Positions 1,114 to 59,251 of a stretch of DNA of 64,000 nucleotides are shown here, in pieces. The stretch's first letter is position 1, and each line of letters opens with the position of its first letter. The notes below the pieces were generated by a model. That model was not told where the DNA came from. It saw only the letters and a program-made list of their open reading frames with translations, and searched no databases. The DNA is taken from NCBI GenBank assembly GCA_021464245.1, contig JADCRB010000060.1:425797-489796 (forward strand), read 5' to 3'. This DNA comes from Carallia brachiata. Taxonomy: Eukaryota > Streptophyta > Magnoliopsida > Malpighiales > Rhizophoraceae. The translations under genes were made by a program, and so were the position numbers.

Positions 1114-1147
<34 letters not shown>

Positions 1148-8200: not shown

Positions 8201-8601
8201 CATGTGATGACATAATAATATTTCTCCACGACCTGTGTCCCCGACCAAGTTCTTCCATAGAAAAAAAATTTGTGTAATAAAATGTGCCTAACGTACATAC
8301 AAACAAAACTATGATATGTTGAATTATCTTCTTCCAATCGTGCATACAAAGTTAGATCCGAAAATATATTAATTTGCTTTGGGGGTATAATTGTCATTTT
8401 TATTAAAAAAATTTTCTTTCTCTTCACTTTCTTCTCATATCCAAACAAATTACTATTTTCTTTTCACTTTCTTTCTTCACATTTCTCTTATCACTCCAAA
8501 CAACATAAGAGAAAATTATATTCTTTCTCTCCTCTTTCTTTCTCTTCACTTTCTTTCTCTCCACTTTCTATCCCTCATCTATTTGCACTCCAAACAAAGC
8601 G
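5237..8601. mobile_element. Non-autonomous PIF/Harbinger-like DNA transposon
   Basis: A 3,365-bp insertion bounded by inverted ends: CACTTTGTTTGGAGTG at 5,237-5,252, and CACTCCAAACAAAGCG at 8,586-8,601, whose reverse complement matches the left end at 15 of 16 bases. TAA occurs on each side (5,234-5,236 and 8,602-8,604), and copy B has a single TAA at 34,271-34,273 with nothing inserted. A 3-bp TAA/TTA duplication with TTTGTTTGG-type ends is typical of PIF/Harbinger (Tourist) elements. The subterminal zones are purine-rich on the left and pyrimidine-rich on the right. No transposase is visible and the longest internal frames are about 100 codons, so it must have been moved in trans. Its interior (about 5,470-8,390) has no recognised origin. 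Confidence 0.75.
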
Positions 8602-8604
8602 TAA

Positions 8605-10035
8605 GTAAATTAGGTGAAACTTATTGATAATTGGATTGTCGGAAAGAATTGTTCCTGGAGACATGAGTCCATAGCGAGCGGTAGAGATAATAAAATCGTA
8701 CTTAGGATTCACATTTCAAATTTAAGCTTTTAGTGAGAGGCGATTAATTAAAAGAAAAAAAAATTGAAACATGATACAAAAAGCTTTGTGTTTTCGTAAA
8801 ACTTGCCCAATAGCTTCATAAGCTTTTCTAGTTGACATATTCCTCAATGTGGTGCACATCATGTTTAAACTTACTCCATTTTTTATTGTTATCATCATCA
8901 TCATCATCGGTCAATTATTTGAAAATGTAATTTCTTTTAAATTTGTTATCCCTTAAAGTATGAAGGGAGAGAAAAGAAGGAATTCAAAACTTAATTAATT
9001 GGTCAAATGGAGAAAGTCCTTAATAGTTATGAAATAATTTAGCATGCTTTAGCATCCCGCCTGCCCCACTTGGCTACTTTGCGGCCTTTAAAAATGGGCA
9101 TTTGGCCACTGAAGTATCATACCTCGGTGCAGTGTCTATAAACTCGATTTCTGCATTCACTCTAATTATTAACTGATTAATCGCTAACTACTATAAATAG
9201 TCAAAAAAATATAATTTATTACTTACTAAATTTAAAATTTAAGATATAATTTAGTATTAAAAGTTGTTGGTTCGTGATAATAAAATTTTCCTATAAATAA
9301 GTTGGGAAAATCAAAGCCAAGTTTTGGTTAAGTTTCACTTTTATGTACATCCTCCATCTTTTCTAGCAAAATCTCTTGGATTAGTGTCGTTATCCAAGTA
9401 ATTAATCATCAGTAATTGCTTGTGGGGAATACTCGTGAATCAATGAACAAACTTTTCAAGATAAATGTTACACACGTTGCTTTTAAGATAAAATGTTATA
9501 TGCGGCGACACGTTGGCGCGAACGCAAACGCCCATCAATTCATTCCAGCCGCCCATTTCCCAGGCCCCATCTGCTCATTTTCCTTCTTTCTCTCTCCGTA
9601 CTAGGTGATTAAGTTAACAACAATCATAAACTTAATTTTATTAAATAATATTCAATAATTTATTTATATATTATATTTATAAGTTTAATTATTTAATAAA
9701 AAATATTATTTTGTTATTATCTTGAGATTAAATGCATGATCTCTAGTAAAGTTAAAAAATTTTGTCTTAGAACCTTATAAAAAAATATATAAAATAGTCA
9801 TACGGTAGTTATAAAAATAAATTTTAACTTTTAATTAATAATTAAAAATTTAATTTTTAAAATTTAAAATTTAAATATATTTAATATTTTTTAGATATGC
9901 TTAATATTGTTTTGAATTTTAATTTCAAAAAATTTATTATGGTCTATAATTACTATATAATTATTTTTTTATGTCTTAATTTTTTACTTTTTCTTAAGAT
10001 TAAACTCGTGGAACATATCTGGCAAAAGTACCTTC
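8605..10035. other. Non-coding upstream region of MCU copy A
   Basis: AT-rich sequence with no supported gene. It matches about 34,274-34,700 and 35,800-36,540 of copy B. It precedes the conserved promoter block of the calcium uniporter gene. Confidence 0.6.
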
Positions 10036-10045
10036 ACAGGAGGGC

Positions 10046-10051
10046 CACGTG
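10046..10051. promoter_or_regulatory. G-box (CACGTG) upstream of MCU copy A
   Basis: CACGTG in the context GGGCCACGTGTACGG, about 190 bp upstream of the TATA box. The same motif and context are kept in copy B (36,929-36,934) although the sequence further upstream has diverged. G-boxes bind bZIP and bHLH factors in plants. Its function here is inferred. Confidence 0.45.
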
Positions 10052-10238
10052 TACGGTGATTAAGCAAGTTATTCTACGATTACTCGTGAATCCAAGGGGA
10101 GCGCCTCTCTCAATGTGTCGGCTCGGGAATATTCCAATGGATGGAATGAATATATGCCCGAAAGTGAGGTAGTTACAAAATACCATCATTATCTCATCTC
10201 GTTTTATCGTATCGTCTTCCTCTCCCTTGGGACAACTG

Positions 10239-10245
10239 TATAAAG
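10239..10245 (+). promoter_or_regulatory. TATA box of MCU copy A
   Basis: TATAAAG in the context AACTGTATAAAGGGCTCC, 117 bp upstream of the start codon. It is identical in copy B, which implies a leader of roughly 85-90 nt. Confidence 0.65.
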
Positions 10246-10361
10246 GGCTCCCCAAACAGCTGCCAGCGGCCACCTAAGAATTTTCCATTTTATTTGGAAA
10301 TTCAAAAGCTTATTTTCTCCGTTTGTATTTTATAAATAAAAAAAATTTGTAATTCCAAATA

Positions 10362-12776
10362 ATGGCTTTCAAGAAAACAATAGCAGAGCGTCTCTTCAAG
10401 ATCTCGAAAATCTCAAACAAATCGCTCACAGATTGTCGCATTTGCTCGCCTTCTGTCCAGACCCGAATGCCCGAGAACCCGAACAGCAAGGCCAACATTG
10501 CCCCGGATCCCGGAGATAACGGCGCCTTCCGTCGATTGTTTCACAAGAGAGCAACTTTCTCAGGGGAGCTCCGGCCAATGCAAATCGGGGAAAACTTGAT
10601 GGAGAAGCTTAAAGTATTTGATTTCTCGAAGGACCGAATCCGATTGGACGGTCTCTCGCCACCGGCGATCTCGAAAGGATTGACGGTGGAGGACGCGAGG
10701 AAGTTGCTGCGAGTGGCGCAGTTGGAGATGGTGAAATCGAGGCTCAGAAGGATGGAGAAAAGGTGGATAACGCTTAGAGAATTTGTTCGGATCTGTGAAG
10801 AGGTCTGTTCGGATCCGGAACAAGCTGTTCGGGTCGCGGAAACGCTCGACGAATCTGGGAATGTAATCGTAGAGGGGAATGTCGTTTGTCTCAAACCAGA
10901 ACAGGTAAAAATCAAATTTTATTTTATTTTATTTTATGATTTCACTTTCATTTTACTCTTAATTAATTGATTAATTATATATTTATATTTATATATATAT
11001 ATTATATATATATATATATACACATCCTTGCTTATCTAATTTCTTTTACAGATTAACATTAGGATACAAATGGTCCTCTCCTCTGAGAGTTAAAATTTGC
11101 AATTTCACCAGATAAATTACGATTTTGATTTTTCTTCTTTTTTTATTATTATTATTTTTTTTGGAAATACCGAAAACTGATGATTTTTTTTTATGATTAC
11201 TTGGTGTTTTCTTTTCCACAGGAGAATCAATGAATTTCGCCAGGTCTAAAGAACAAAAAAGCCCTTCAGTTTCTACAGTGACCAGATTTTTTTCACTCAC
11301 TGGTGTTAGGCTTATGGGGAATTTCAGTGCACCCATGTTGCCTTAACTGCTTTCTCCGATTGGCTTCATGTTTTTTAGAGACTAATTACTAATCAAATGG
11401 ACAAGAATCTTTTGGTTAAAAAAAAAAAAAAGAGAAGAGTCAAAAAAGTTATTAGAAAATATTAGTAAGTAAACAAAAAATTCCAGCCGTTAAAAACGTA
11501 TACTGTTAAATACAATTAAATAGAATTATATTATTATTTTGATATTATATAAAAAAATTTTTGTAGTGATACTTTTAATTATTTTGTAGTAGTACTGTTA
11601 ATTAGATTGTAGATATTTAACAAGGTCGAGGGACTATGAAGAAGCCTTGGGACTATTTGATGAGTAAATCATTTGTGTCGATATATTCTCTTATTTTAAG
11701 TAATTATTTTTGATATTTAAGTATCAGTTTCATGTATGAATTTATCGTGTATTAATATAATAATTTTCGTAAAAAAAAAAGAGGGAGTATGAAGAAGACA
11801 AAAAAGGGCGTTGGTGGGGTTTAGTCTCATGTTATATTGAATGTAAAAAAGAGAGAGACTTATAGTTTTGCTTTTGTATTTGCCGTTTTTTTTTCCCCTT
11901 TTTTTTGACTGAATTTCAGCTTCATTTTGTCATTGTTTTGTTCTTTCCGTTTTTGTTTTCTCACTTTTATTTTTCACTTCTGAAATTTACAGATTTCCGG
12001 CGTAATATTATGGAACAACTGTTGCCATCTGCTTTCAAGCAGTCACATTTTCAATTTCTTACCTGTTTTGAAAGTTTCAAGGACTGGTTTTCTCGTTTTG
12101 TTTCCTTGTTCTCAAATCTGAGTTTTTTTTTGTTTTTTTTGGCTTGTTTGCTTACAAAGAGATTGTGATTAGAGTTTCAGTTACTGATGTCAATTAACTA
12201 ATTCATCAAGGAATTATAGTAGCCCAGGATTCATGTAATCTAGCGATTATAGAGCTTTGTTTTACCCAAACAATTCCTTTTTTTTTCTCTTTGTTTGTAT
12301 TTATTACAGCTGTTGAAAGCAATTGGAGGTCTAATTCCATTACCAGCAATTAGCCAAAATGATCGAAGAAAAAGGGAACTTGAAAAAATGGAGCGGCAGA
12401 AAGTTGAAATTGACCGAAAAGCCAGGACCATGGTGCGCAGGGAACTCTGGGCGGCCTAGGATTCGTGATGGTCCAGACAGGCGGGTTCATGAGGCTAACA
12501 TTCTGGGAACTTTCATGGGATGTCATGGAGCCCATTTGCTTTTTTGTCACTTCTATGTATTTCATGGCTGGGTATGCCTTTTTTCTCAAGACGTCAAAAG
12601 AGCCAACCTTTGAAGGGTTCTATCAGAGCAGGTTCAGTGACAAGCAGAAGCAACTTATGAAGCTCCACAACTTCGATTTGGAGAAGTACAGAGAGCTTCA
12701 CAATGCTTTTTACCCTTGTTCGGAGCTGTCACCACCTGCAGTTACTTCATCTGATGAAGCTGGAAAACTATACTAA
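10362..12776 (+). CDS. MCU: Mitochondrial calcium uniporter (MCU), copy A, frameshifted
   Basis: Pore subunit of the inner-membrane calcium uniporter, which lets calcium into the mitochondrial matrix. Exon 1 (10,362-10,904, 181 codons) begins with a basic, Ser/Lys-rich presequence like a mitochondrial transit peptide, followed by the MCU N-terminal domain. The intron (10,905-12,309) has GT..AG ends. Exon 2 (12,310-12,776) holds a charged coiled-coil, TM1, the selectivity-filter motif WDVMEPI (12,516-12,536), TM2, and a C-terminal tail containing [13 protein letters not shown] residues. Joined, the length would be about 336 residues, usual for plant MCU. Relative to copy B one G is missing at 12,449-12,451, giving an in-frame TAG at 12,457-12,459 before TM1. 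The pore therefore lies in another frame (12,465-12,776). The lesion is in a G-run, so an assembly error is possible. Family call is secure; activity is doubtful. Confidence 0.88.
10905..12309 (+). other. Intron of MCU copy A
   Basis: Phase-0 intron with donor CAG|GTAAAA and acceptor TTATTACAG. It is AT-rich with poly(T) tracts and no supported coding sequence. The matching intron of copy B is 37,786-38,968. Confidence 0.8.
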
Positions 12777-14429
12777 GACATTGACTCAATGACATAACAT
12801 ATCCAAAAAAAGGAACAAAGAGAGGCAATTTTGTGTAACCCATTTGCCTTATTATTTAGAGTTTAGAAAAGGTTAGTAGGTGCGGTTTTCTGTAATGTAA
12901 TCCGGAGTTGGAGAGAGAGCGTTTCCAAGTTTTTCTGAGGATTTGGAAAAGGAGTACACATAAATGAAACATAGTTCTATAATGTACTTCTACATGTACA
13001 AATGGGCTTCGGCTCCTCATTTGCAAGAAAGCAGACCATTGGACCACCGATCGCTGTGGTTTAGGGACAAAAACGAAGGCTTGTCCATTGCTGGGCCCAA
13101 GGTTCTTGAGTCTCGGTAGAGGCGTTTAGTGGAATTAAATCCACATATACGGATTGTGCTTTTCTGACAAGCACAAGATTTTATTATCCAATTATAAAGT
13201 ATTACTCATATTTTTTTTATTTACAAGACCAATTAAAAGAGAAAAGAAAAAAAAAGAAATGCACGCCACGCGGTCTTCAATAGGAATTGAATTCAGCAGC
13301 ACTTACGATAAACAGTAAAGTTTTTCTTACAAAAAAAACAAGTTTTTTAAAGCTATTTAACCGGCTTATTTAGTTATGTAGTTTAAAGAAGCTCATCATA
13401 ACCATTTTAAAAATAATTGACCATTGAGTTACGAAATTGATTTTATGTTAATCGAAAGTACATAAAGATGACATTTATTATATATCATCATTTTGTATTT
13501 TTTGATCATATACTTGGAAATGCACAAATTAAAGAACCTGACGGTTGTTAATAGCTCGTGATCATCATAAGAGTCGTTCTAGAACGACTTGTGGCTACCT
13601 CGAGAGAGTTCAAGCTAGGGAAGGATTTATAAGATAGTTATCGTCGTTATCTTTGGCTTTGTCTAAGTCGCTCGATCCACGTTCAATACCACATGATTTA
13701 CCAGAAGTCAAGTCCAAGTTCAATGTTTATCCTTTAACATCTGCAATTCTAGCCGGTCCCAGAGAGGCCCCTAGGAAAATGGGGTCAATTTAGCATCCCT
13801 TTTATTTTTGGAGTCTTCTATTCGGCAGCCCCAAATAATGCCTAACACCCTAGATTGTAGTTGGCACTTTGGCAGATAACATTATGTTGGGACTTGATTG
13901 TGCTACTTGGTTATTTTCCAACACTTAATTTTTTTTTTTGTCTTACATTCTCAATATCTTTTTGGGCACAAGAAGGGGGTGGCTTTTTTTTTAAATGAAA
14001 CTGAAACCCAAGTGAGAGAAACTTAAATGAATATTAATTTTTCTTATTTTAGATAAAAAAAATATATTAATTTTTCTCATTTTCTGTCATATGAATTCTA
14101 TTCTATCTATTTTACGCATTACCAAAAAGAGTAAGTTTTCTTTTTTTTTTTTGGTTTTAGAAGAGAGTTAAATTCATATAGAGGAATAAGGAAGAGATGT
14201 AATAAGAATCGAATTTTCAATCATATCTTTAACTAGTAAGATTGATGATTATTTAAACTTATACTCATGGTGAGTAAATTATTTTTATTAGGAGGAGGTT
14301 GGTTTAACTTTGATTAGAGGTCTAGGCGCACAAGTTTTGGGTTGGTCTTGGTTAATTTGCTTTAGTTGGGAAAATTTAACAAGCTCAAGAAGCCTGTACC
14401 TTTGCACTGAAACTTCTTAAGGGAGACCA
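12777..14429. other. Region downstream of MCU copy A
   Basis: 3' flank of the uniporter gene and intergenic DNA that aligns with 39,436-41,505 of copy B. No further gene is recognised. Confidence 0.6.
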
Positions 14430-14446
14430 GAAAGTGGGGGGCTTTT
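14430..14446. repeat. Target-site duplication of the SINE, left
   Basis: GAAAGTGGGGGGCTTTT, repeated exactly at 14,592-14,608. Copy B has one related copy and no insert. Confidence 0.85.
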
Positions 14447-14591
14447 TTTTTTTTTTGGGTCATTTAGCCTAGTGGCCAAGGAGCTCAACTTGAGCATTAG
14501 GGGGAGGGGGGATGTGGGCCAGGCGGGGGTTCGAACCCCCGCCTGGCGTGGTGGGGGTCATCACCCCCACCACACGAGCTACGGCTCGTCC
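14447..14591 (-). mobile_element. tRNA-derived SINE, hairpin-rich
   Basis: A 145-bp insertion absent from copy B and flanked by a 17-bp duplication. Read on the - strand it starts GGACGAGC, has a box-A-like TAGCTCGTGTGG at nt 10-21 (14,582-14,571), a box-B GGTTCGAACCC about 45 nt later, and ends in a poly(A) tract (the T-run beside 14,447). That is the layout of a tRNA-derived SINE moved by LINE machinery; the sense-strand duplication starts with AAAA, as expected. The + strand also offers a box-A-like TAGCCTAGTGG, so orientation rests on the poly(A) tract. Almost the whole body folds: a 30-bp perfect palindrome (14,518-14,547) and hairpins at 14,483-14,495, 14,548-14,573 and 14,575-14,588. 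Confidence 0.8.
14518..14547. repeat. 30-bp perfect palindrome containing box B
   Basis: Arms GCCAGGCGGGGGTTC and its reverse complement meet without a spacer at TTCGAA. The T-arm/box-B sequence is therefore the same on both strands. Confidence 0.95.
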
Positions 14592-14608
14592 GAAAGTGGG
14601 GGGCTTTT
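14592..14608. repeat. Target-site duplication of the SINE, right
   Basis: Second copy of the 17-bp sequence at 14,430-14,446. Confidence 0.85.
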
Positions 14609-14821
14609 GATTGATAGAAAGTGGCCTAATTCTCTGATCTCCCCTCTTATCAAAGCAAGTTAATCCAAACCTCACGGGCCTGTCCATAAATCTTGTCTGA
14701 ATTTTTGGGTTTTCTGATCCTGAACAATCTCCAAACCATTTGCAAACTCCTTTTTGAAGACCCCTTGAAGTGTCAAATGGACCAACGTGTAGGCTACGGC
14801 GTCTGGGATTATTAAGCAAAG

Positions 14822-14872
14822 AGAACTTGTTGGCCGTACTTACCAACCAAAAAAAAAGAACTTGTTGGCCGT
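14822..14872. mobile_element. 19-bp poly(A)-ending insert with 16-bp direct repeats
   Basis: AGAACTTGTTGGCCGT occurs at 14,822-14,837 and 14,857-14,872, with a 19-bp insert ending in eight A's between them. Copy B has only one related stretch (about 41,747). This looks like an extremely truncated target-primed insertion. A simple local duplication is the alternative. Confidence 0.55.
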
Positions 14873-15633: not shown

Positions 15634-15638
15634 CGCAG
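15634..15638. repeat. Target-site duplication of the LTR retrotransposon, left (CGCAG)
   Basis: CGCAG before the first LTR and again at 20,711-20,715. The unoccupied site in copy B (42,401-42,405) has it once. Confidence 0.95.
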
Positions 15639-16632
15639 TGTAAAGCTGTAAATTTCGAGCCTGTAACAGTTAGACTCAAAAAATACAGAAACAAATTACA
15701 ATAAAAAAAATTGTAAAATGAAAAGAAGTTTACGTGGGGTCGATCTCTGAGTAGATCCTCCGATTAATGCTCCTATGTAATTTAGTCAAGGGCCGTGAAG
15801 GCTTAATCTTGACCGAGAGATGATGAATTTCCACAGCGTGAACTTGAACTGTAGGAAATGGATCCCACTGAGGGCCGAGGCTTGATCTCAAGTGGATTAG
15901 TTGAACTCCGGTGAGGGCCGTAGGAGGCTTGATCCCACTTGGATTGGATGGACTTCGGTGAGGGCCGTAGGAGGCTTGATCCCACTCGGACTGTATGGAC
16001 TTCGGTGAGGGCCGTAGGAGGCTTGATCCCACTCGAACTGGATGGACTTCGGTGAGGGCCGTAGGAGGCTTGATCCCACTCGAACTGGATGGACTTCGGT
16101 GAGGGCCGTAGGAGGCTTGATCCCACTCGAATTGATTGGACTCCGGTGAGGGCCGTAGGAGGCTTGATCCCACTCGGATATTTAATATCTTGGGTTTTTG
16201 ATCTAGCGGATCCAACTTAGTGGCAGCTAGAGAGCATACACCCAAAATATTTAGAGAGAGAAAGGAAGAGATGCAAAGCTTTAGAAGATGAATGATTTGC
16301 TTTGCTTGGGATGATTTGAAAGGCTTTGAGGGGATCCCTATTTATAGGGTTTTGGGGGAGGATGGATGCCAAAATTGTATGACTTGGATCATACATGGCA
16401 AGGGCCCTCTTTGGTGGTTGAATTTTGACATTTTGCAATCAAATGGAAATTAAAATTTCCATATGATTCATCATGAGTAGGATCCTACAAGGCAAGGACC
16501 CTCTTTGGTGGTTGAATTTTGACATTTTGCATGGTCATCAACCAAATGGAAATCATCATTTTCATATGCATGCACTTGTTGCTTTCATGTAGGGCATGCA
16601 TTGATTTTTTTTTTTTTTTTTTGGTGTTTACA
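15639..16632 (-). repeat. 3' LTR of the homeobox-carrying element
   Basis: 994 bp. It contains six head-to-tail copies of a 47-bp unit (GAGGGCCGTAGG starts at 15,913, 15,960, 16,007, 16,054, 16,101 and 16,148) and a sense-strand TATAAATA box at 16,339-16,346. Open frames through the repeats exist in all three phases only because 47 is not a multiple of three, so they are not genes. Confidence 0.95.
15913..16190. repeat. 47-bp minisatellite in the 3' LTR, six units
   Basis: Each unit carries GAGGGCCGTAGGAGGCTTGA and then TCCCACT. The other LTR has five units. Confidence 0.95.
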
Positions 16633-17477
16633 AATGCCCCCACTTCAAGGGTCGGTAAGGAAGAATTTTACCGTAATGATCCGAACCGAGTCTTGAAGTC
16701 CAGTTTGAAACTTGAGATGTCTTAATGAACGTTGAATGTTGGAGTCTTCTATCTTTGACCATGCCTGCTGTTGTTGGATCGCAATAGGAATCCGATACGA
16801 TCTTGAGAAGGTTAGCAGCCCAGCCAATATAAAAATTGAAGTCTTGGCTCCAGGTGCGTTCGAGCTTCCATAGCCCGCAAAGGATTTTTTATATCTCTTA
16901 AAGTTCCAGAGCTCTGGTGAGGATGATCCAGTAGGCAAAGAACTTGAACCTCCCCAAGAGGAAGGCCCAGGACCTTGGAACTTCAAGACCGGCTCACAGA
17001 GAGACTGACTGTAGTGATGATTTCCAAGTCTGCTTCGACGTAAGGAGAGTAGTTGGAACTTCCCTGTACGTCGCTGCATCCAAAGAAAGATTAGGATAAT
17101 TGCAGCTTCTCATCCCTCTGTGGTAGATGTGAACTAAGGAGAGTAGTTGGAACTCCATGACACCGATGGCGTTGGAGACTGAGTTTCGAGGATCCCTCGA
17201 AGAAGACTACTCCCTCTTTTCTTAGCTCGTGCGCCTCCAACTTCTTGATCGAAGAACTTCCTGAGACAAGTGCAGAGACTAGCCATTTTTTTTTTTTTTT
17301 GAGAAAGAAGAGCTGAGGGGTGAATATTACAACTCGGGCATGCAGGATATATATACAAATAATAAAGAGTTTTTTTTTTTTTTTTTTGAAAAGTCAAAAA
17401 AAAAAGGTATGCAGAATCGGGTAGGGCCATCCACGTCCCTTTCCTGCATAAGAGACAAAAGAGGCAGCGGCTGACGC

Positions 17478-17597
17478 GTGTCACGAAAGTCGTTACCGTG
17501 TGTGGCAGAAGTCGTTGCCGTGTGCTGCGGAAGTCGTTGCCGCGTGCTGCGGAAGTCGTTGCCGCGTGCTGCGAAGTCGTTGCAGAAGTCGTTGCAC
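17478..17597. repeat. 22-bp tandem repeats downstream of the homeobox gene
   Basis: About five degenerate copies of a 22-bp unit around AAGTCGTTGCCGCGTGCTGC, just past the stop codon of the homeobox frame on the - strand. Confidence 0.85.
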
Positions 17598-17615
17598 CTT
17601 ATCTTGTCGGCCGTC

Positions 17616-18226
17616 CTAGCGGGGCCCGAGGCGCAGCTCCAAGTCAAGCTCGACCTCGTCTGGTGGGCCGATGATGTTGACGTCGCTTTCCGGCTGGTTG
17701 ATGCTGCCGGAATATTCTGGAAAGAGAGGCAAAATTTCGCCGGAATGACTCCTGTGTGCTAGAAAAATTCCTCCTAGACTTAAGTATCTAGGAGGGATGA
17801 ACCCTTGGCTGACTCCGTGAAACCACCAGGACCAGTATGTATGCTCCCATATGCTACGGCTTTGATGAACGTACCGTGGAGAGACCATTGCAGTGGTAGA
17901 ACTTGGGCCGGCTTCATTTGAGGGTGAAGCTGTACTGGTGAGATCTACTATAGGAACAACAGGCTGTGCTTTGGAAATACCATCTCTCAGCGCCACTGTT
18001 TCCCTATGTCTCCGATTCTGGAACCAAAAATATACATTTTTCCTTCGACTGCCCCTAGCGGGCGAAGTCGTGAGACAAGTTGGAGAATCTGTGTAGAGTT
18101 AGGGACAATACCTCCATCGTTGTAGAAGACTTCCTCCAAAATTTGCAGTTGTGCCATGGTCGGTTGCCACCTTGTGCGAGGTGACCTTTCTTCTCCTTTG
18201 TCTTGAGGTTCTGCAACTGGTTCCAT
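17616..18226 (-). pseudogene. Captured WUSCHEL-clade WOX transcription factor, one frameshift
   Basis: Homeobox gene inside the LTR element, same sense as the element. It starts at ATG 18,226 with a short acidic N-terminus. The homeodomain begins near residue 16 (TRWQPTMAQLQILEEVF) and has WOX features, including the longer loop and GAVEGK before helix 3. At a T5 run (18,037-18,041; A5 on the sense strand) the frame shifts by one base. The other frame continues with NVYFWFQNRR, the invariant helix-3 core. The C-terminal part (to TAG at 17,616-17,618) holds LPLFP, a WUS-box (17,718-17,732), and LDLELRL, an EAR-type repression motif (17,628-17,648). Together these mark the WUS clade, whose members maintain stem cells as nuclear repressors. 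Total about 200 residues. No intron is visible, consistent with capture through RNA. One missing A disables this copy unless it is an assembly error. Confidence 0.85.
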
Positions 18227-18342
18227 CTTTCTTGCGGCAGAGGAGCAAAGGTCTTGGTATGTGGTGAAGATCGGTTGAGACTGATGCTGACTTTCAGAAT
18301 CAAACCCTCCGTCGGTTTTATATTTTTGGGCCGTTCACAGTT

Positions 18343-18545
18343 TATACTCATGCGGGCCAGGAGTTTGGTGAACTGTAGTGTCGCCTTTTATACTCGTGCG
18401 TGGCAGGAGTGTTGAACTCTGATGTCGCCTTTTATACTCGTGCGTGGCAGGAGTGTTGAACTCTGATGTCGCCTTTTATACTCGTGCGAGGCAGGAGTGT
18501 TGAACTGTGATGTCGCCTTTTATACTCGTGCGAGGCAGGAGTGTT
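18343..18545. repeat. 44-bp tandem repeats upstream of the homeobox gene
   Basis: About four and a half copies of a 44-bp unit starting TATACTCGTGCG at 18,343 (diverged), 18,389, 18,433, 18,477 and 18,521. On the sense strand they lie just 5' of the homeobox start codon. Confidence 0.9.
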
Positions 18546-18842
18546 GTGTTGAACTGCTGAGCTGTTGAGCTGGCGAGCTGGTGAGCTGTTAAGCTGATGA
18601 GTTGTTAAGCTGCTTGGCTGCTGAGCTGGTGAGCTGTTGAGCTGCTGAACTGTTGAGCTGTTTGGCTGTTGAGCTGCTGAGCTGCTTGGCTGCTGAGCTG
18701 CTGAGCTGGTGAGCTGTTGAGCTACTGAGTTGTTTGGTGAGCTGTTGAGCTGTTGAGTTGGTGAGCTGCTGAGCTGTTGAGTTGGTGAGCTGCTGAGCTG
18801 TTGAGCTGGTGAGCTGTTTGGTGAGCTGTTGAGCTGTTGACT
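18546..18842. repeat. GAGCTG-type minisatellite
   Basis: About 300 bp of GAGCTGTT, GAGCTGGT and GAGCTGCT variants with a period near 9-10 bp. Non-coding. Confidence 0.9.
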
Positions 18843-19160
18843 TGAGTTTTGATTCAGGGTCTAGGCTTTGCCCCCGAATCTGGATTTAGGCTATGAGTTG
18901 GAACTTGGATTTGGGTTTTGAGCCCGAGTTTAAATTTGGTGAATTTGGGCTTTGGGCTAGGGTTTGAGTTTAGGCTTTTTGGGCCTGGATTTGAATTTGG
19001 GCTTTAGGCCCGAGTTTGAATTTGGATTTGGATTTTGAACTAGAATTTGGGTTCGGACTTGGATTTTGCCCCCGAATTTGGATTTGTTGGGTTTTGAATC
19101 GGGGTTTGAGATCTGGCCCCGAATCTAGATTTGGATTTTGAGGAAGGATTCTGAACTTGC
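18843..19160. repeat. Degenerate GAATTTGGGTTT-type repeat
   Basis: Low-complexity array of TTGGATTTGGG, TTTGAATTTGG and GCCCCCGAATTTGG variants within the LTR element interior. Confidence 0.8.
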
Positions 19161-19169
19161 ACATAAGTT

Positions 19170-19326
19170 TCAGACATTTTTTTTCTTTTTTTTTTCCTCT
19201 TTTTTTTGGCTTTTTTTCGTGCTTTTTTTTTTTGCACTTTTTTTTTTTGCTTTTTTTTTGTTTTTCTTTTTATTTCCTTTTTTTATTTCTCTTTTTTTGT
19301 CTTTTTTTTTTGTTTTTTTTTTTTTA
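19170..19326. repeat. T-rich tract (A-rich in element sense)
   Basis: About 155 bp, overwhelmingly T. Open frames through it are artefacts of base composition. Confidence 0.95.
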
Positions 19327-19652
19327 CACAGTAAATTTTAGAAGTTTACCATTTGACCGAACCAGGTCAGGATGCGTTGACAGCATGCAAGCGTAATTGA
19401 CGTAGGCTTCTGAACCAGGTATAGCCCGCCCCAGTTGGAAGTGAGCTTGTCGTAGAGTCGGTGCTTGTGTCCCTCTATTGGTCCAGTTGGATGAGAACTG
19501 TGTCCATGCACGAGTTTGCGAACCTACGTACTCAAGTAGGATGATTAATGCAGGCGATTGAGCTGTCGTCCTTTTATTGGTGGCGATAGTCTTGTTCATC
19601 TTTAGTGCCACCGATGCACCGGATTCCTGCCCTCTAGAGTTGTGTTGGTGTT

Positions 19653-19686
19653 GGCCATTTCACGGCCCATAGGCCATGAAATGGCC
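19653..19686. repeat. 15-bp-arm hairpin in the element leader
   Basis: GGCCATTTCACGGCC and GGCCATGAAATGGCC face each other across a 4-base loop with a single C/A mismatch in the arms. It lies about 80-110 nt downstream of the 5' LTR on the sense strand, where retroelement packaging or dimer signals are usually found. That role is inferred only. Confidence 0.8.
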
Positions 19687-19740
19687 GTTGTGCCACCAAC
19701 TTTTTTTTTTTTCTAAGGAGCAAAAGATGGGAGGTAGAGA

Positions 19741-19758
19741 TGTCCCACTGGGCGTGCC
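19741..19758 (-). other. Primer-binding-site-like sequence
   Basis: On the - strand, TGGCACGCCCAGTGGGAC starts a few bases after the 5' LTR end, in the context ATTTTTGGCACGCCC. The position and the leading TGG fit a tRNA primer site. Which tRNA was not determined. Confidence 0.65.
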
Positions 19759-19764
19759 AAAAAT

Positions 19765-20710
19765 TGTGAAGCTGTAAATTTCGAGCCTGTAACAGTTAGA
19801 CTCAAAAAATACAGAAACAAATTACAATAAAAAAAATTGTAAAATGAAAAGAAGTTTATGTGGGGTCGATCTCTGAGTAGATCCTCCGATTAATGCTCCT
19901 GTGTAATTTAGTCAAGGGCCGTGAAGGCTTAATCTTGACCGAGAGATGATGAATTTCCACAGCGTGAACTTGAACTGTAGGAAATGGATCCCATTGAGGG
20001 CCGAGGCTTGATCTCAAGTGGATTAGTTGAACTCCGGTGAGGGCCGTAGGAGGCTTGATCCCACTTGGATTGGATGGACTTCGGTGAGGGCCGTAGGAGG
20101 TTTGATCCCACTCGGACTGTATGGACTTCGGTGAGGGCCGTAGGAGGCTTGATCCCACTCGAACTGGATGGACTTCGGTGAGGGCCGTAGGAGGCTTGAT
20201 CCCACTCGAATTGATTGGACTCCGGTGAGGGCCGTAGGAGGCTTGATCCCACTCGGATATTTAATATCTTGGGTTTTTGATCTAGCGGATCCAACTTAGT
20301 GGCAGCTAGAGAGCATACACCCAAAATATTTAGAGAGAGAAAGGAAGAGATGCAAAGCTTTAGAAGATGAATGATTTGCTTTGCTTGGGATGATTTGAAA
20401 GGCTTTGAGGGGATCCCTATTTATAGGGTTTTGGGGGAGGATGGATGCCAAAATTGTATGACTTGGATCATACATGGCAAGGGCCCTCTTTGATGGTTGA
20501 ATTTTGACATTTTGCAATCAAATGGAAATTAAAATTTCCATATGATTCATCATGAGTAGGATCCTATAAGGCAAGGACCCTCTTTGGTGGTTGAATTTTG
20601 ACATTTTGCATGGTCATCAACCAAATGGAAATCATCATTTTCATATGCATGCACTTGTTGCTTTCATGTAGGGCATGCATTGATTTTTTTTTTTTTTTTT
20701 GGTGTTTACA
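19765..20710 (-). repeat. 5' LTR of the homeobox-carrying element
   Basis: 946 bp with five 47-bp units (starts at 20,039, 20,086, 20,133, 20,180 and 20,227) and a sense TATAAATA at 20,418-20,425. As the 5' LTR in the - orientation this holds the promoter that would drive the element transcript and the homeobox gene. Confidence 0.95.
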
Positions 20711-20715
20711 CGCAG
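20711..20715. repeat. Target-site duplication of the LTR retrotransposon, right (CGCAG)
   Basis: Matches 15,634-15,638. Confidence 0.95.
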
Positions 20716-23700
20716 GTCTATGTGATTGTCAGTTACAAGTAGGTTGCTTGGTTTCATATCCAGCAAGAATTTGAATTTCTTGCTTGAGTGTGTCCATCTG
20801 CCTTTTCTGAGGTTTGATGCTTCTTTTGAGCATTCACATAACTCAGTTACCTTCCCCAATAGAGATATTTTTGCGGAGACAGCCGCCTGCATGATCTAGA
20901 GTAGTTTGCTTCCCCGAACTACACATGATGTTGAATCTCTTAATAACATACTTACATACATCATGTACCCAGTAATTTAGGTATGACCGAAGCCTCTTGC
21001 TCGGGGGAATCTATCAGTCCAGGATTTGTACAATCAAACTATTTTTTCGCATCTGCAATAGATTTTATTTTTTGTCCATTAGAGGACAATGCCCATGCAA
21101 GCAGGAAAGGAGATGTAAGAGGTAAAATCGAACCTTTAACTTTTTCGTTGATACAAGATTTCTAGACTAGTTGAATTAAACAGTTAATTTTACATCTATA
21201 ATAAATCCGCTTGTCATTAATGTTATTATTATGTTAGTTAAAAAACTCAACCAGACTTGAATGAATGTGAATGCAATTTTCGTAATTGACAACCGACGAT
21301 TGACAAGCAATCGAGGAAGTAGGGGTTCAACCTGCAACCTCTTCGAATACCCACAAGTTGTGGGAATTCGGAGCCTTGCCTCCTAATTAGGGTGTTTGTG
21401 CAGTTCTGCAATATTTTCAAACTCGTTTTGTCTTTTTTCTAATAATTAACAAATTATTCACTAATCATTATTGTCTTAAAAAAAAAATAGAGAGAGATAA
21501 ACCAACTGAGTTAAGCAGTCAGTCTCGTATATCTATAATAAATTCTCTCGCCTTAATGCTGTAATGTTTGCTAAAAGATCCATCCAACTTAGATATTTAA
21601 CGGTAGATTGGCTTAGCCGATAACGTCATTGCTCGAATTGGAAAATAGAAAAAGAAAGTTGGTTTTCATTCAGAAGAAATCATAATTATGTACGTAAATG
21701 GTAAATTACAACCTTTCGACATAAAGTAACTGATCACATCTCCTTGCTAGTGTGCCTTTAATTAGCCAAATCGATGCTTATTTTTTTGACAGATAGCTTG
21801 TAACTTATTAGACATTCAAGACCTTATTGCTTACTTCCTAAAGCCAGGAGATGTGAGTCTGTGACCAAATATGAGTGAAGAGCATTTAGATGTGACCGAG
21901 CAGTTTGGTTTATTCTCCAGTAAGTCCTAAATTTTAGTTAAAACTTATTTCCCAATGTCATTCTCAATAGTTGTTGATGAATAAAGCATGGTTGATTTTG
22001 GTGTCTCCATCAGGTTTAATTTCTGTTTCTCCTTTTACGTTCATTCATCACAGGCTGTTACGATCTCCTTGACTAGTGAACGAACTTCATTGTATGAAAT
22101 TGCTCCCTTTCTGGTTACCAAGGTTTCTTGACATGCTCGAAATTCAGGGTATTCAGTGAAAATTGGAACTTGTAATAGCAGGGCTGGCATTTCCAAATTT
22201 CAATTGAGCACTATTATGTAGATGTAAGTTATATGAAAATATAAATAGAATCAGTTTATCCGAATATATTTAACAGTTTATTTATTTTTTAAAATTTAAT
22301 TATATATTCAATAATCTACGTCACTTTGATCTTATTATCTTATATCCATAGAGTATTTTCCATTCCAAATTTCCAATTAACGATTGGGTGGCTGGGTCTG
22401 CAACGAAAGTTTTGTACCAGACTACCAGTGTCGCAACTGAAGTCACTGCATGTCTCATTGTGACAAGTTGCCCGACTTGTTTCGCCGCTGATTATTATTA
22501 TTAACTACGACTAAGAGCAATGAAATATCCTTGTTGATGCCGATTCCGAGACAATCAACCTGCTTCGTGCTTAGACTGAGACGGCTGCTATGCGTTTTTA
22601 ATTTTTAACCCCTACTGACATTCTCTCTTTGGAAAACTGCAATCGTGAGTTGTCTATTAAAAGATCACCTTAAAGAGTGATACATAACATAATTAATAAA
22701 ATAATTTTCATTTATTTTTATTTTTTATTAATTAATTTTTTACATTATTATAATATTTATATTATTTTATTAATTTCTTTTTCCAAATTATCTCTATTAC
22801 TTCGTGTACACGGATAGGGATAACATTTTATATGACAAGGGTATTGGTCCGCATAATATGAGAAAAAGATTGGTGGTTTGTTTGAGGTAGTTTTAAAATA
22901 ACAAAAGAGTAACATTAATTGTTAGATGATTGAATTCATAAATTTTAAAACAAAATTATTAAATATTAATAAACAAAATTGTGCAATAATTTATTATTTC
23001 AAGTTATATAGTATTACTTATTTATTCTATAAGTGTTCCATTAGTTAATTGGTTCTACTAATCGAATGACATTCTATCCTCCATGCAATCACACATCCTC
23101 ATGAACTTACCTTTGTTGACGGCGACTCTGTAAATTTTCCACTAATTATTGACGGAATAGAAAGTTAGGCCTATGATAACAGTGAGTTATTACGTGAATA
23201 CGTAATTAATCTAATAATATCTAATAATTTACCTGATTTTTTGGGTGCAAAATAAGTATTCGTTTACCTTCGTTCATGAACAGCTAAGGTTATGCGCAGG
23301 TTTAAATTCGGTTACAATTGTATATGCTTGAGAGTAAGAGAGTTTTAGTTTTATTGTTTAAAACTCAAACCAATTTCTTTTCTTTATTTTTTCAAAAATT
23401 ATTATTTTTCTGCTTATATATTGAAAACCAAGAATTATATAATTTCAAAAAATACCACATTAGCATTAAATTGGAGAAATGGCATCTAAAATGATAACAA
23501 AATTTAATTACAACTATTATGTTTCAACAATTATTTAAGAAAATTACTATGATGCTCATGTAATCTATCTATATCTATATCCATAATACAATATTATAAA
23601 GGGGAAGTTTAGAGTAAGCTTATCCTTATTTCACTCTTTATATTAATTACACTTTCCTTAGAAAATTAATATTTAAATAAGATAAAAAAATATTATTGAA

Positions 23701-26423: not shown

Positions 26424-26767
26424 TGTAAGCTTATTAATCCATATTCGAATTAATGTGGTTGTGAATTTTTCGAATTTCCTATTTTCATCTGCTTTAGATC
26501 TAATTGTTTCCATGACAAGAAAGTTTCTGAATTTGGGTCTCTTTCATTTATTCATTTTCGCTTCATCCTCGAGATCTCTGGGTTTTAGCTTTCGAATTAG
26601 GTTTTTAAGACCTTTACTTTCATGTGAAGTGGAAAAGATCGCATCTTTTTGTGTTTGCTGAATTCCCAGATACTTCAAGCTTACATAAACTGGTTATTTT
26701 TAGAAAGCGAATTGTAGCTGCAGAATTTTCTTTGAGTTCTTTGAAATTCTGTTCATTTTTTTGTAGG
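26424..26767 (+). other. Probable 5' UTR intron of the UPF0496 gene
   Basis: A donor-like T|GTAAGCTT near 26,424 and an acceptor-like TTTTTTTGTAG at about 26,757-26,767 bracket non-coding DNA just before the start codon. Exact ends are estimated. Confidence 0.5.
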
Positions 26768-26772
26768 TAGAT

Positions 26773-29563: not shown

Positions 29564-29699
29564 GTAACCAAGCACACTGAGGAGGCAAGTTAATGACTTA
29601 TACTGCATCTGGTGACACTTAACAAATTAAGTTTAAGGGTAATATGATTCAAATCGTTAAATCGATTAAACCAACCTGTAACTGCCAATAATGATTTAG

Positions 29700-30182
29700 C
29701 TGGTTTTACTCTTTTATCAGTTTGGTTGTGATTTTGAAAATTTTTAAACCGACACGAATAATTTAATTTGAATATAAAAAATAAACCGTTCTAAACCGAT
29801 TCGCGTACACCCTTAACTCCAAGATAAGCAATGAGTCTCATTGTCTCATATGTGCCATGTTAGAATTCAAAACCTCATACTAATAAGTTCCACGTTGATC
29901 TTTTACTTTACAAAAGAAAAAGAGAAAAAGTTGGAAAATAGAAATATTTTGTTAGAAGACAATTAGAATGAGTTGGACAGGTGGGACCAATAATATAAAA
30001 AATTTATTATTTCTTCAATAATTAGTATTTTTTTTAACGACAAAGTTCATAATTATATATATATATACACACACGTGTGAGTCATATATTAGCTTATCTT
30101 TGAGTTTCTTCTACTCTCTCTTTACCTACAAAACCGCACACAAAGAAAAATAGTTATGTTTTGAACTTTTTATTCTTCCACA

Positions 30183-30239
<57 letters not shown>

Positions 30240-35286: not shown

Positions 35287-35296
35287 TAATAATAAC

Positions 35297-35795: not shown

Positions 35796-35805
35796 TAATA
35801 ATAAC

Positions 35806-36920: not shown

Positions 36921-36928
36921 AGAAGGGC

Positions 36929-36934
36929 CACGTG
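36929..36934. promoter_or_regulatory. G-box (CACGTG) upstream of MCU copy B
   Basis: Same motif, context and distance to TATA as in copy A. Confidence 0.45.
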
Positions 36935-39435: not shown

Positions 39436-42400
39436 AACATCGACTCAATGACTAGACATTAAAAAAAAAAAGAACAGAGATGGTGGCAATTTTGTGCCCC
39501 ATTTGCCTTATTATTTAGAGTTTAGAAAGGTTAAGTTGGTGCGGCTTTCTATAATGTAATCCTGAGTTGGAGAGAGCGTTTCCAAGATATTCTGACCATT
39601 GGCAAAAGAAGAACACATATACGATACACAGTTCTATAAGGTACTTCTACATATACAGATGGGCTCAGGCACCCCATTTGCAGATAACAGACTAGTTCAC
39701 CACCGATTGTTGTGGTCCAGAAATAAACAAGAAGGTTTGTCAATTGCTGGGCCAAAGGTCCTACATTGGAGTTTCCGTCGATACGTTTAGTGAGATTAAA
39801 TCTATATTATGGAGTGTGCATTTTTAATAATTAATATTTTATAACGAGATTATAAACTATCACTCATATTTTTTATTTACAAAAGTAATAAAAAAAGAAA
39901 AAAAACAGACCATTGATATTTTTTGAGGAAAAACTGACGGATTGCTACTTTAATGAATTTCATGGCATGTTGTACTTTTGCCCATCTGCGTGATAACTGT
40001 ACAGTGAAGAACTTTTTGGGCCTGTTGTTTGAGTAGGTTTAAGGTCTAAATAGGCAACAAATCAGTTGGCTTTTATCATGTCATACCTTAAAACATTGAT
40101 TTTATGGATCCTCTCAACTTATAATTTACTTCTCCTTCTCTTTTCAGTACTCGAAATGTTTTGTTTTATAAATAGCTAGAGATCTGGTTTATTACGTTTT
40201 GCAAATGGCATGCCTCCAATTGTTAATCAACAAATGAAGTTTTTAGAAAGACATTTTTTTTTGTTCAAAAATGTCACAGGCGTGGGGCTCATTGAGGGAA
40301 ATTTCAGCCTGCGTTCAATCGGGCAATGGGTAATTTTGTTGATTTCCAAATATGCCCCCAACTCTTATACCGCCGATTTCAAGTCCAGGGCTTCCGTGGG
40401 ATTCGAATTCGGTGGCACTTTGGAAACAGTAAACATTAAAGATTTTTCTGTGAGAAAACAAGTTTTTTAAAGTTATTCGAACGGTGTATTTAGTTAATTT
40501 ACCTTTTTTTTTTTTCAGTTTAAAGAAGTCGTCATTACCCATAATCATTTTAAACATATTTGATGTTACGAAATTGATTTTATGTTAATCGAAACTATAA
40601 AATGACATGTAACCTAAATAGTCATTTTGTATTTTTTGATCATATACTAATTCGAACCAAAAGGCCGTTCTTTGATAATGTGCAAATTAAGGAACTTGAT
40701 GGCCGCTAGTGGCTCGCGATCATCAAAAGACTCGTTCCAAAACTAACTTGTCCTAACAAGGGATAAATCCAGGAAAGGATTTATATACCTAGTCTGAGTG
40801 GCTTGGTCCTTATTTCATGCCACATGATTTGCCAGAAGTAAGGTCTGAGTTCAATGGTTAGTCTTTAACAACCGCAATTCTAGCCAGTCCCAAAGAAGCC
40901 TTAGGAAAATGGGATCAGTTTTGCAACCCTTTTATTTTCAGAATCTAAACTCTATTCGGCTACCCCAAATAATGCCTAACGCCCTGGTTGGCATTTTGGC
41001 AGGGAACATTGTGAACATTGTGTTGGGATTTTTTTGTAATACTTTGTTTTTCTTCAATATTTAATTTAGTCTCATATTCCCCAATATTTTTTAGGCCAAC
41101 AAGGGGTGGCCATTTTTTTTTTTAAAATGTAACTGGAACCTGTACAAATATTAATTTTTCTCATTTTAAATAAAAAAATATTATTTTTGCTCATTTTCTC
41201 TTATTTATTTTGCAACTTACCAAAATAATTTTTTTAAAAAAGAATTTAAAACTCATACAAAGGAACATGAGAATGAGTGCGATGAGAGTCAGACTTTTAA
41301 TTACATATTTAACTAATAAAATTACTGACGACTTAAACTAATGTTTAGAATTAAGAGTAAATTATTTCTTTGAAGAGGAGGTTGATTTAACTTTGATTAG
41401 AAATCTAAACCCACAAGTTTTAGGTTGACCAATTTGCTATAGTGGAGAAATCTAAGAAGACTCAAAGAAGCCTATTAACTTTACCCTAGAGCTTCTCGCA
41501 GGAGACGGAAAGTAGGGGCTTTTGATTTATAAAAAGTGGCCTAATTCTCTCATCTCCCCTGCTATCAACGCAAGTTAAGCCAAACCTCACGGGCCTGTCC
41601 GTAAACCTTGTCCGAATTTTTGGATTTTCTGATCCTGAACCATCTCCAAACCATTTGTAAACGCCTTTTTGAGGACCCATTGAAATGTCCAATGGACCAC
41701 TGTGTAGGCTAGGTATCTGGGGTTATTAAGCAGGTAGAACTTGTTGGGTGTCAGTCAAGTACATTTGTCAAGTGTCTGCGTTTTTAGAAAGTGCCAATCA
41801 ATCGATATTTTAATATTTTAATAGTTAGTGTATAAATTTATATTATAAAAATTTTAAATTTAAATTTTTTTAAAAAAAAAAGATTTATAAAAAAAAAGAG
41901 TTATATTAATTATATGATTTATAACTTAATATATTTTTTAATGAACAAAAAAAAAAGTGTCAATCAATACCGATAAATAATGTGAACTCACATATCATGC
42001 AACCGTGATAAGTCTCATATACTACTTGAAATAATAGTTCAGTAATAAATTGACGTATTTTTATGTTGTTGACTTGGGTTTGAACTCCTGCACCAGTGCT
42101 CCCCTTGGCTGATCCATTATGGGGACCGTCTTAGGTGTAAGCTGTGATGCGCAACATTGAAAGTAGACTCGATAATCGTCGTAGTCTTGTGACAAAATTA
42201 CGTTCAACCCTACTAGTATTTGAGTGATAAATCTGTCCTTTTAAGATAGTTGAACGAGACTTTAATAAATAAGAGCTATTTTGATATTGACCCGTAAATT
42301 CAATAACTACCATATTGGATGAGATTTTTTTTTTTTTTTTTTTAAAAGAAAAAAAAAAGGCCTCGTACTCTGAAGAATTGGGCTGGGACTACTAGGCATG

Positions 42401-44540
42401 CGCAGGCCCATGTCACTGTCAGTTACATTTAGGTTGGTTGGTTTCATAGCCGGCAAGAGTTTGGATTTCTTGCCGGAGTGTGTTGATCTGCCTTTTGGGG
42501 TTTGATACTTCTTTTGAGCATCATAACACTTACCTTCCCAAAAAAAATATTTTTGCGGAGACACGTAGGCACATGCACAGTCTCGAGTTGCACAAACCCC
42601 TTTGCTTCATCTAACTACACACGTTATGTGGAATCCTTTTATAGCATACTAATTTAGGTACTCCTGCTCCGGATTTCGATCGGTCTAGGATTTACAATCA
42701 AACTAATTTTTTGCATCTACATTAGAATTTTTTTTTTTAATGCCCATACAAGTGAGAAGGGACATAGGGGAGGCAAGAGGAAACCCTTGACTCCTCATTT
42801 AGTAAAAGACTCATAGAGTAGTTAAATTAAATAATTAGTCTTGCATTTACAATAGATTCTTTTACCATTAGTGTTACTACTATATCTACTAAAAGACCCA
42901 CTAGACTTAGACGAATGAAAGTACAATTCTCGTAATTGATAATTGACAATTAACGAGTAGTCGGGAGGTTGAGGTTCGATTTTCAATTTCTTCAAATTCT
43001 CATAAGTTGTGAAATTTGGAATCTTACTTCTTGAAATACTTTGTACTCCTGCAATATTTCATAATTACTCTCTCCTTTTAACTAACAACTAATAAACTAA
43101 TCATCAATCATTCCTGTGTTAAAACAAAAGGGAAAAAAAAAGAGAGAGAGAGAGAGATTTATTAGAAATCGAGATTGAGAGGGAGAGGGAGTGAAAACAA
43201 AAGAAGCTTAGCAACCGGTACCACGACATCTGTTCACGTAGACACATTTAATGACAAATTGGCTTACCTGATAACGTCATTGCTCGAATTGGAAAACAAA
43301 AGGGAAGTTGGCTTTAATTCAGAAGAAATCATAAATGTGAATGGTAAATTTCAACCCGTTCGACATAAATTAACTGATCACATCTCCTTGCTAATGTGCC
43401 TTTAATTAGTCACCTCGATTCTTGTCTTTTTGACAAGTGGCTTGTAACTTATTAGACATTTAAGACCTTATTGCTTACTTCCTAAAGCCAGGATAGACGG
43501 GAGTACGTGACAAAAAAATGAGTGATAGCATGTAGATGGGACCGAGCAGCTTCGTTTATTCTCCATCGCTAACCCAGCGGGTAGTTACTTCTCCACTAAG
43601 TCCCATGTTTTAATTAAGACTTATTTTCCAATGTCATTCTCAAGAGTTATTAATGAATAAAGCATGGTTTAATCTAATTTCTCCATCAGGTTTAATTTCT
43701 GTTTCTCCTTTACCGTTCATTCATCACAGGATGGCATGAATCCTTGACTAGTGAACGAACTTGATTGCATAAAATTGCTGCCTTGCAAGTTACCAAGGTT
43801 TCCTGACATGCTCGAAATTCAGGTTATCCTGTAAAAATTGGAACTTGTAATAGCAGGGCTGGCATTTCCAAATTTCAATTGAACACTATTACATAGACGT
43901 AGGTTACGAAAAAAAAGGCAAACAAATTATTATCCGAACACATTTAACAAAGTTTACTTATTTTTTTATATTCTCAAATAGTCCATGTTACGTCACTTTG
44001 ATCCTACTGACCTATACCCATCAAGAATTTTTCATTCCAATTAACAATTGGGTGGCCGGATCTGCAACGAAAATTTTGTACCAGACTACCAGTGTCGGCA
44101 ACTGAAGTCACTGCATATCTCATTGTGACATGTCTCCCGACTTGGTTCACCACTTATTATTATTATTAACCATGAAATATTCCCTGTTGATGCTGATGCC
44201 GAGACGGTCAACCTGCTTCGTGCTTAGACTGGAATGGCTGCGATGCGCTTTTTTTTTTTTTGACCCGACTGTCATTCTCTCTTTGGAAGAATGCAATTGT
44301 AAGTTGTCTATTAAAAGATCACCTCAAAGAGTGATACATAACATAATTAATAAAATAATTTTCATTATTTTTCCTTTTTATTAATTACATTATAATAATA
44401 TTTATATTATTTTATTATTTCTTTTCAAATTATCTCTATTACTTCGTGTTCAAGAAAGTGTTTTCCTTCTATTAATTAATAATGGTTCGTTGAAAAGAAG
44501 AGACACGGATAACATTTTTATATGACAACGGGCAATTAAC
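39436..44540. other. Region downstream of MCU copy B
   Basis: Counterpart of 12,777-15,638 and 20,716-22,850 without their insertions. No gene recognised. A (GA)n run sits at about 43,140-43,157. Confidence 0.6.
42401..42405. other. Empty insertion site of the homeobox-carrying retrotransposon
   Basis: Single CGCAG in the context CATGCGCAGGCCCATG, aligned to the duplicated CGCAG around 15,639-20,710 in copy A. Confidence 0.9.
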
Positions 44541-51491: not shown

Positions 51492-51493
51492 GA

Positions 51494-59248: not shown

Positions 59249-59251
59249 CAC

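Follow-up and report, generated by a model that had tools for sequence, protein, structure and literature searches.

A WUSCHEL-clade homeobox gene carried by an LTR retrotransposon family in Carallia brachiata

Structure of the element and its homeobox gene

We examined 64,000 nucleotides of the Carallia brachiata genome (contig JADCRB010000060.1 of assembly GCA_021464245.1, forward-strand positions 425,797 to 489,796; hereafter the window, with positions counted from its first letter). Within it, a long terminal repeat (LTR) retrotransposon with TG...CA LTR ends runs on the minus strand from 20710 to 15639. Repeats and a low-complexity tract aside, its internal region holds a single recognisable coding region, an intronless WOX homeobox gene of the WUSCHEL (WUS) clade. 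The features of the locus are listed in element sense from 5′ to 3′, with the empty site last:

20711..20715: CGCAG target-site duplication on the 5′ side (element sense), present once at the empty site
19765..20710, minus strand: 5′ LTR, 946 bp, aligned against the 3′ LTR
20418..20425, minus strand: TATA-box-like TATAAATA in the 5′ LTR, a putative promoter called on its motif only
19742..19759, minus strand: TGGCACGCCCAGTGGGAC, resembling a primer-binding site (PBS) and beginning 5 nt past the 5′ LTR
19341..19400, minus strand: gag remnant, the final ~20 codons of a gag open reading frame (ORF) that longer sisters carry intact; its 20 residues match the gag of sister locus L018 at 80% (E 3.3e-5 in a small search)
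18341..19325, minus strand: low-complexity and tandem-repeat stretch with 44-bp units, 8-bp units and an A-rich tract (element sense)
17616..18226, minus strand: WUS-clade WOX gene, intronless, with its ATG at 18226, its stop ending at 17616 and one 1-nt frameshift at ~18043
17487..17583, minus strand: 22-bp tandem repeat directly after the WOX stop
16633..16646, minus strand: GAAGTGGGGGCATT, resembling a polypurine tract (PPT) and abutting the 3′ LTR; seen in 7 of 7 sister loci inspected
15639..16632, minus strand: 3′ LTR, 994 bp, with one 47-bp repeat unit more than the 5′ LTR
15634..15638: target-site duplication CGCAG, 3′ side, giving CGCAG at both element ends
42360..42405, plus strand: paralogous empty site with a single CGCAG (42401-42405), where the paralogous block aligns across the joined flanks

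The paired LTRs, the CGCAG duplication, the empty site and the PBS-like and PPT-like sites had all been named in a preliminary description of this DNA, and our alignments bear them out. Because the paralogous block carries CGCAG once and aligns across the joined flanks, we take it to represent the site before insertion. Over 946 aligned columns, the two LTRs differ by 7 substitutions (all transitions), one 47-bp repeat unit and one T. At substitution rates of 1.3e-8 and 7e-9 per site per year, this corresponds to an age of ~0.29 or ~0.53 million years, respectively. The core of the PBS-like TGGCACGCCCAGTGGGAC, GGCACGCCC, is present in 3 of 7 sister loci inspected and absent from the other 4. 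None of the 14 reading-frame entries scanned in the element matched a gag or pol family at cut-off, and Rfam and tRNA scans gave nothing informative. An autonomous element would carry both gag and pol, and here gag amounts to the 20-codon remnant. A second locus, C143, has 3.56 kb, flank included, in common with the window at 99.86%. Because the window's flanks are shared, we treat it as a second appearance of this insertion in the assembly and rejected it as an independent copy.

The WOX frame encodes a homeodomain, an LPLFP WUS-box and an LDLELRL EAR-like motif, all of which the preliminary description had recognised. It did not mention that the frame is broken by a 1-nt frameshift beside an A run, between homeodomain helices 2 and 3 (~18043). 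The frameshift is also present at C143, and it may stem from misassembly or misreading of the adjacent A run. The context of the ATG at 18226 is presumably favourable. A WUS/WOX2-type profile of 121 database proteins matches the two unjoined pieces of the frame (E 2.8e-14 and 6.3e-4); among the window's remaining stop-to-stop pieces, none matched at E < 10. Furthermore, 200 shuffles of the internal region in 2-base blocks gave no reported match of at least 5 bits under HMMER default filters, and we rejected chance as the source of the similarity. Read through the frameshift, the protein matches WUSCHEL (6RY3, E 6.7e-16) and STENOFOLIA (E 1.2e-13) in the PDB, and its homeodomain scores 37.2 bits against PF00046 (cut-off 22.9). 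The aligned frame also keeps the W39 anchor and the WUS base-reading residues R38, Q89, N90 and R94, which contact DNA bases in WUS (PMC7203112).

The WUS-box, a marker of the WUS clade, is found in the window's frame and in both WOX types compared below. Four features of WUS are combined in the window's frame: a 41-residue spacing, an inserted aromatic residue, the WUS-box and a C-terminal LxLxL. All four occur in 74 of the 121 database proteins and three in a further 4, whereas the 43 proteins with a 40-residue spacing (WOX2 where named) have the WUS-box only. These references are the best listed of 2375 matches and are mostly WUS and WOX2, which weakens an assignment to WUS proper. The inserted tyrosine Y54, termed WUS-specific in PMC7203112, is a tyrosine in the window's type and a histidine in L012, L061 and L062, and so is not constant among element types.

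Copies across the genome and layout of the family

We surveyed 337,529,591 bases (337.5 Mb) of the host genome in 164 contigs. A WOX 22-mer, allowing up to 2 mismatches, occurs at 844 sites (402 + 442), and a 26-mer spanning the PPT/3′ LTR junction occurs at 463 (218 + 245); the reversed pattern of each gave 0. With a 610-bp WOX probe, all 40 scored matches (best 40 of 1237 candidates) were full length at 99-100%, and with a probe taken from a diverged copy, the 40 rows (best 40 of 1215) ranged from 94 to 100%. The preliminary description had named several copies with the same WOX insert as support for its reading, and these counts agree. With the LTR as probe, 40 of 1747 candidates were scored and 42 rows obtained. 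Across 20 LTR-anchored loci, WOX is full length in 17 (including L016, the window's own insertion), partial in L021, and absent from L025 and L026. In all 17 loci with a full-length gene, WOX is oriented in the sense of the LTRs. Similarly, among the listed places of C1-C40, an exact WOX 22-mer lies 750-1172 bp upstream on the same strand of 9 of 9 exact junctions and 10 of 19 one-mismatch junctions, a lower bound, as the listing holds no WOX words with mismatches.

This survey bears on an alternative in which a host WOX gene happens to lie between two unrelated LTR insertions, or WOX was inserted into an existing element at one locus. We regard it as refuted for practical purposes. A single target duplication and an empty site account for the whole 5-kb unit, and WOX and the PPT/LTR junction recur at hundreds of places in a constant order wherever checked. 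A host gene sitting between two LTRs was rejected on the same grounds.

In 12 sister pairs, LTR divergence ranges from 0.53 to 2.8%. Target duplications of 5 bp were found at exact edges in 3 of these pairs, at shifted edges in 3 and not at all in 6, the aligned LTR edges often being incomplete. At C108:37296-51799, five PPT/3′ LTR junctions follow one another on a single strand at intervals of 3.2-4.7 kb, possibly a tandem array of the element. Searches of viral and genome contig collections were uninformative.

Longer sisters differ in layout from the window copy. In L018, a 307-residue gag ORF lies upstream of WOX and matches PF03732 (Retrotrans_gag) at E 1.8e-14; Ty3_capsid matches only below its cut-off. 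At least 287 of these 307 residues are found in 5 of the 20 loci (L018, L021, L022, L023 and L028), and L009 has a gag with an internal gap. L018 also differs from the window in WOX and the 3′ part alike. The original account of WOX within an LTR family thus stands, with the correction that the family includes gag-bearing members. No pol was detected in the 20 loci by tblastn with proteins of a chromovirus in the window, a weak query that also missed the sisters' gag. By its layout, the short form is a gag-deleted derivative in which WOX occupies the place of pol, and the family is apparently large and non-autonomous. Because WOX-carrying elements are found with no detected pol, their mobility would have to come from elsewhere. 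A competing possibility, which we hold to be less probable but by no means negligible, is that a complete gag-pol-WOX element was the ancestor and is the mover, with WOX as a third gene like the env-like or accessory ORFs that lie between pol and the 3′ LTR of other elements, and with the copies seen here as its deletion derivatives. The failure to find pol counts against this to the limited extent that the query allows.

Origin of the gene and maintenance of its frame

Querying the genome with Vitis WUS (best 138 of 1353 candidates scored), we recovered two host WUS loci, L059 and L060 (79% and 77%), whose coding sequences are split by introns in the tblastn alignments. Below these came seven rows at 55-66% (taken as other host WOX genes), a row for a WUS third exon at 53%, and rows at 34-54%, which we take for element copies and of which two were read (L061 and L062). 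Because host WUS has introns and the sister elements have continuous 203-codon WOX frames, the element gene is most likely derived from an mRNA. For comparison, WOX4 genes have three exons, and single-exon members are exceptions within two-exon subgroups (PMC5977200). The earlier proposal that the element mobilised a processed WOX gene is in keeping with the intronless frames and the hundreds of same-order copies. An intron-bearing host donor had also been named as support; two intron-split WUS loci exist, and either is a candidate for that donor.

The element gene does not appear to be a recent copy of these two host genes, because its homeodomain shares no more than 41-48% identity with the WUS-clade references used. 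In homeodomain trees its branch is 1.1-1.9 changes per site long, and the median terminal branch ~0.05. The recent activity read from LTR similarity in the preliminary description therefore applies to the last transposition and not to the capture, which on these divergences is judged to be old. Alternatively, a fast-evolving host WOX paralogue could long have been the gene's home and been captured recently, so that the divergence would be uninformative on function within the element. We consider this unlikely. It would accommodate the absence of any close relative of the element protein in the protein database (a search with the C-terminal piece was uninformative), but in the Vitis WUS query the two WUS loci and the seven rows at 55-66% are followed by apparently element-type rows, and the WOX types within elements are already 6-13% apart in DNA.

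The fetched loci yielded 47 full-length WOX matches, 10 of which were dropped for a flanking word equal to another's (4 places fetched twice, 2 matches from the C143 locus and 4 other places with an identical flank). A continuous 203-codon frame is present in 18 of the remaining 37 copies, encoding 8 distinct proteins. When the open frame of a sister was used as a protein query (best 150 of 2306 candidates), 118 rows were full length without a stop; 130 span residues 1-202 or 1-203, and 13 contain a stop, 12 of them among these 130. Because the rows are the best-scoring, this share is not that of the whole family. Sister copies with an open frame, which the preliminary description thought might exist, are in any case plentiful. 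At C136:3115677, C93:222102 and C70:669659, WOX lies inside open frames of 381-444 codons (usually 225-243), possibly fused to neighbouring sequence.

The 37 copies fall into WOX types of 33, 3 and 1 members, and the protein identities of the 150 genome rows cluster at 90-100% and 81-85%. Both types compared retain the WUS-box and the LxLxL EAR-like motif, and their final 45 residues differ at 2 places. Silent changes in this tail are also few, so its similarity may partly reflect exchange between elements. In L010, L012 and L028, WOX is 86-87% identical to the window's and other segments are 95-99.8% identical, as would result if elements had swapped WOX types by recombination or template switching.

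We next compared rates of silent and amino-acid change. Between the two types, dS (silent changes per silent site) is ~0.27 and dN (amino-acid changes per amino-acid site) is 0.104-0.109, giving dN/dS of 0.38-0.40 for one second-type frame against 6 of 17 first-type open frames. By part, the ratio is 0.34 in the homeodomain, 0.49 in the linker and 0.58 in the tail, the last on only 6 changes. The partial L061, of another type, gives 0.39 and 0.41 against the two types (0.44 and 0.19 for the homeodomain alone). In neutral simulations (3000 draws), as few amino-acid changes arose in 0%, 1.3%, 2.0% and 3.5% of draws at kappa 1, 3.5, 5.3 and 8, where 3.5 is twice the raw transition/transversion ratio. 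Neutral decay to 45% homeodomain identity left 0.2% of 4000 draws stop-free, and 0 of 4000 that also kept both motifs; this simulation fits divergence in the host or in the element alike. Together, these comparisons provide moderate evidence for purifying selection on WOX and, likewise, moderate evidence that the gene is an old resident and not a newly acquired passenger.

A passenger origin nevertheless has to be weighed: a WUS-type cDNA that a successful non-autonomous family picked up a single time and has copied along since, its open frames reflecting recent bursts and not function. Young LTR pairs (0.21-1.10 million years in 12 pairs at 1.3e-8), the broken frames described below and a first-type ratio of amino-acid to silent change of 0.54 per site, on very few changes, would all suit it, and there is ample precedent for plant LTR elements capturing genes (PMC7264820, PMC3726574, PMC13317346). 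It fits less easily with two types that stand 15-20% apart in protein, each with many full open frames, a WUS-box and an EAR-like motif, with dN/dS of ~0.4, and with the neutral-decay result, which bears equally on divergence in a host. On balance, we consider the passenger explanation unlikely though not negligible, and well behind that of a maintained gene.

Elsewhere in the window, a large direct duplication surrounds the element (762-14833 with 29682-41747, and 20711-22810 with 42401-44452), mostly at 79-93% identity, with parts at 68-74%. The paired ORFs at 10353-10967 and 37236-37847 resemble, by eye, plant mitochondrial calcium uniporter proteins and have no Pfam match at 1e-3. A separate Ty3-type element at 54184-59640 on the minus strand has gag, protease, RNase H, integrase and chromodomain matches and terminal repeats 95% identical to each other; it has no real similarity to the LTR of the WOX element. 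Repeats of ~500 bp at 35297-35793 and 52727-53224 are 86% identical and strongly palindromic, resembling miniature inverted-repeat transposable elements. Ordinary host genes include a DUF677 family member (26767-27906) and a RING-finger protein (51410-52174).

A possible accessory gene and its significance

We consider it probable that the window copy is a gag-deleted member of a WOX-carrying family in which WOX has been kept as an accessory gene. The anatomy of the element and the long residence of WOX are the firmest parts of this explanation and very likely correct. Selection on WOX within the element is favoured a little less strongly than the explanation as a whole, and a meristem role for the element's WOX is doubtful. 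Directly shown are the structure, the mobility (target duplication, empty site and hundreds of copies), the intronless WOX in LTR sense and open WOX frames in at least two diverged types. The spliced mRNA of a WUS-type host gene would have entered the element long ago by reverse transcription and template switching, leaving an intronless WUS-clade gene between gag and the 3′ LTR, in the place of pol and env-like genes. A gag-pol partner would supply reverse transcriptase and integrase in trans. The WUS-box and EAR motif recruit a host co-repressor, and the WOX protein may have been kept as a DNA-binding repressor that is able to do the same and helps the element. Most plausibly, it would influence meristem and germ-lineage cells, in which transposition is inherited, by altering their fate or gene expression. 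Our preferred model is thus a trans-mobilised element whose WOX protein may act on the host cell.

Several observations weigh against this explanation or parts of it. WOX is broken in 19 of the 37 copies, the window's included, and some of the open frames in young copies would be expected simply because little time has passed. The selection test leans on one second-type open frame, and its wrong-frame control gave ratios of 0.61 and 1.74. Homeodomain trees (67 columns) leave the element branch unplaced: its grouping with WUS is neither shown nor rejected (approximately unbiased test, p 0.301), with long branches meeting at the outgroup and several homeodomains entered by hand. A transcript from the LTR TATA at 20425, with its start site assumed, would have a putative leader of ~2.2 kb with 12 upstream ATGs, so that expression of WOX would need splicing, reinitiation or an internal promoter. 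Finally, WUS-type sites (TGAA, TAAT, TTAATSS and the G-box) show no enrichment in either the LTRs or the internal region. This removes the simplest model of self-regulation, and we rejected regulation of the LTR through such sites.

The element gene resembles WUSCHEL and other WUS-clade WOX genes in its homeodomain with base-reading residues, the extra homeodomain residue, LPLFP and the C-terminal LxLxL. It differs from them in its 41-48% homeodomain identity, its lack of introns and its hundreds of copies within LTR elements. TR-GAG elements have gag and lack pol. The longer sisters resemble these and other pol-less non-autonomous LTR elements in having LTRs and gag with pol undetected (by the weak tblastn of 20 loci); unlike TR-GAG, they carry WOX besides, and the window copy has lost gag. 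Maize Bs1, tomato Rider (SUN) and an Arabidopsis TRIM likewise hold host coding sequence in an LTR element in the same sense, whereas here it is a developmental regulator with a full domain set that is a fixture of a family numbering hundreds of copies and including diverged types. Grande gene23 and the antisense ORFs of Retand and RIRE2 are, similarly, accessory ORFs in the 3′ half of an element that are kept in many copies. The antisense ORFs are described as having no clear similarity to other proteins (PMC7264820), whereas WOX is in sense orientation with a clear host origin. According to the same source, transduced genes occur in one or few copies, and most of the extra ORFs that it discusses are of unknown origin. 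Many captured genes are reported in PMC3726574 and PMC13317346, neither of which uses the words homeobox or WUSCHEL in its main text. Judging by titles and the beginnings of abstracts, our searches of open-access papers listed none on a WOX-carrying LTR element.

Plant transposons are known to take up pieces of genes, usually described in one or few copies. Here, a whole homologue of a stem-cell master regulator is a standing component of the family, in hundreds of copies and in types that have diverged with the frame kept. Should the protein be produced, mobile genes for a WUS-like repressor would number in the hundreds in this host, and manipulation of the meristem by mobile DNA becomes a question that can be asked directly. 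Even if silent, the copies would confound WOX annotation and could yield small RNAs against homeobox sequence. More tentatively, the element may have domesticated a stem-cell regulator, a selected WUS-type repressor that biases cell fate or gene expression toward the meristem or germ lineage so that insertions are inherited; the recognition helix would then vary between types and the WUS-box/EAR tail be nearly fixed. Were this doubtful reading true, the family would be a plant counterpart of the capture of growth-control genes by retroviruses, with the captured gene stably resident.

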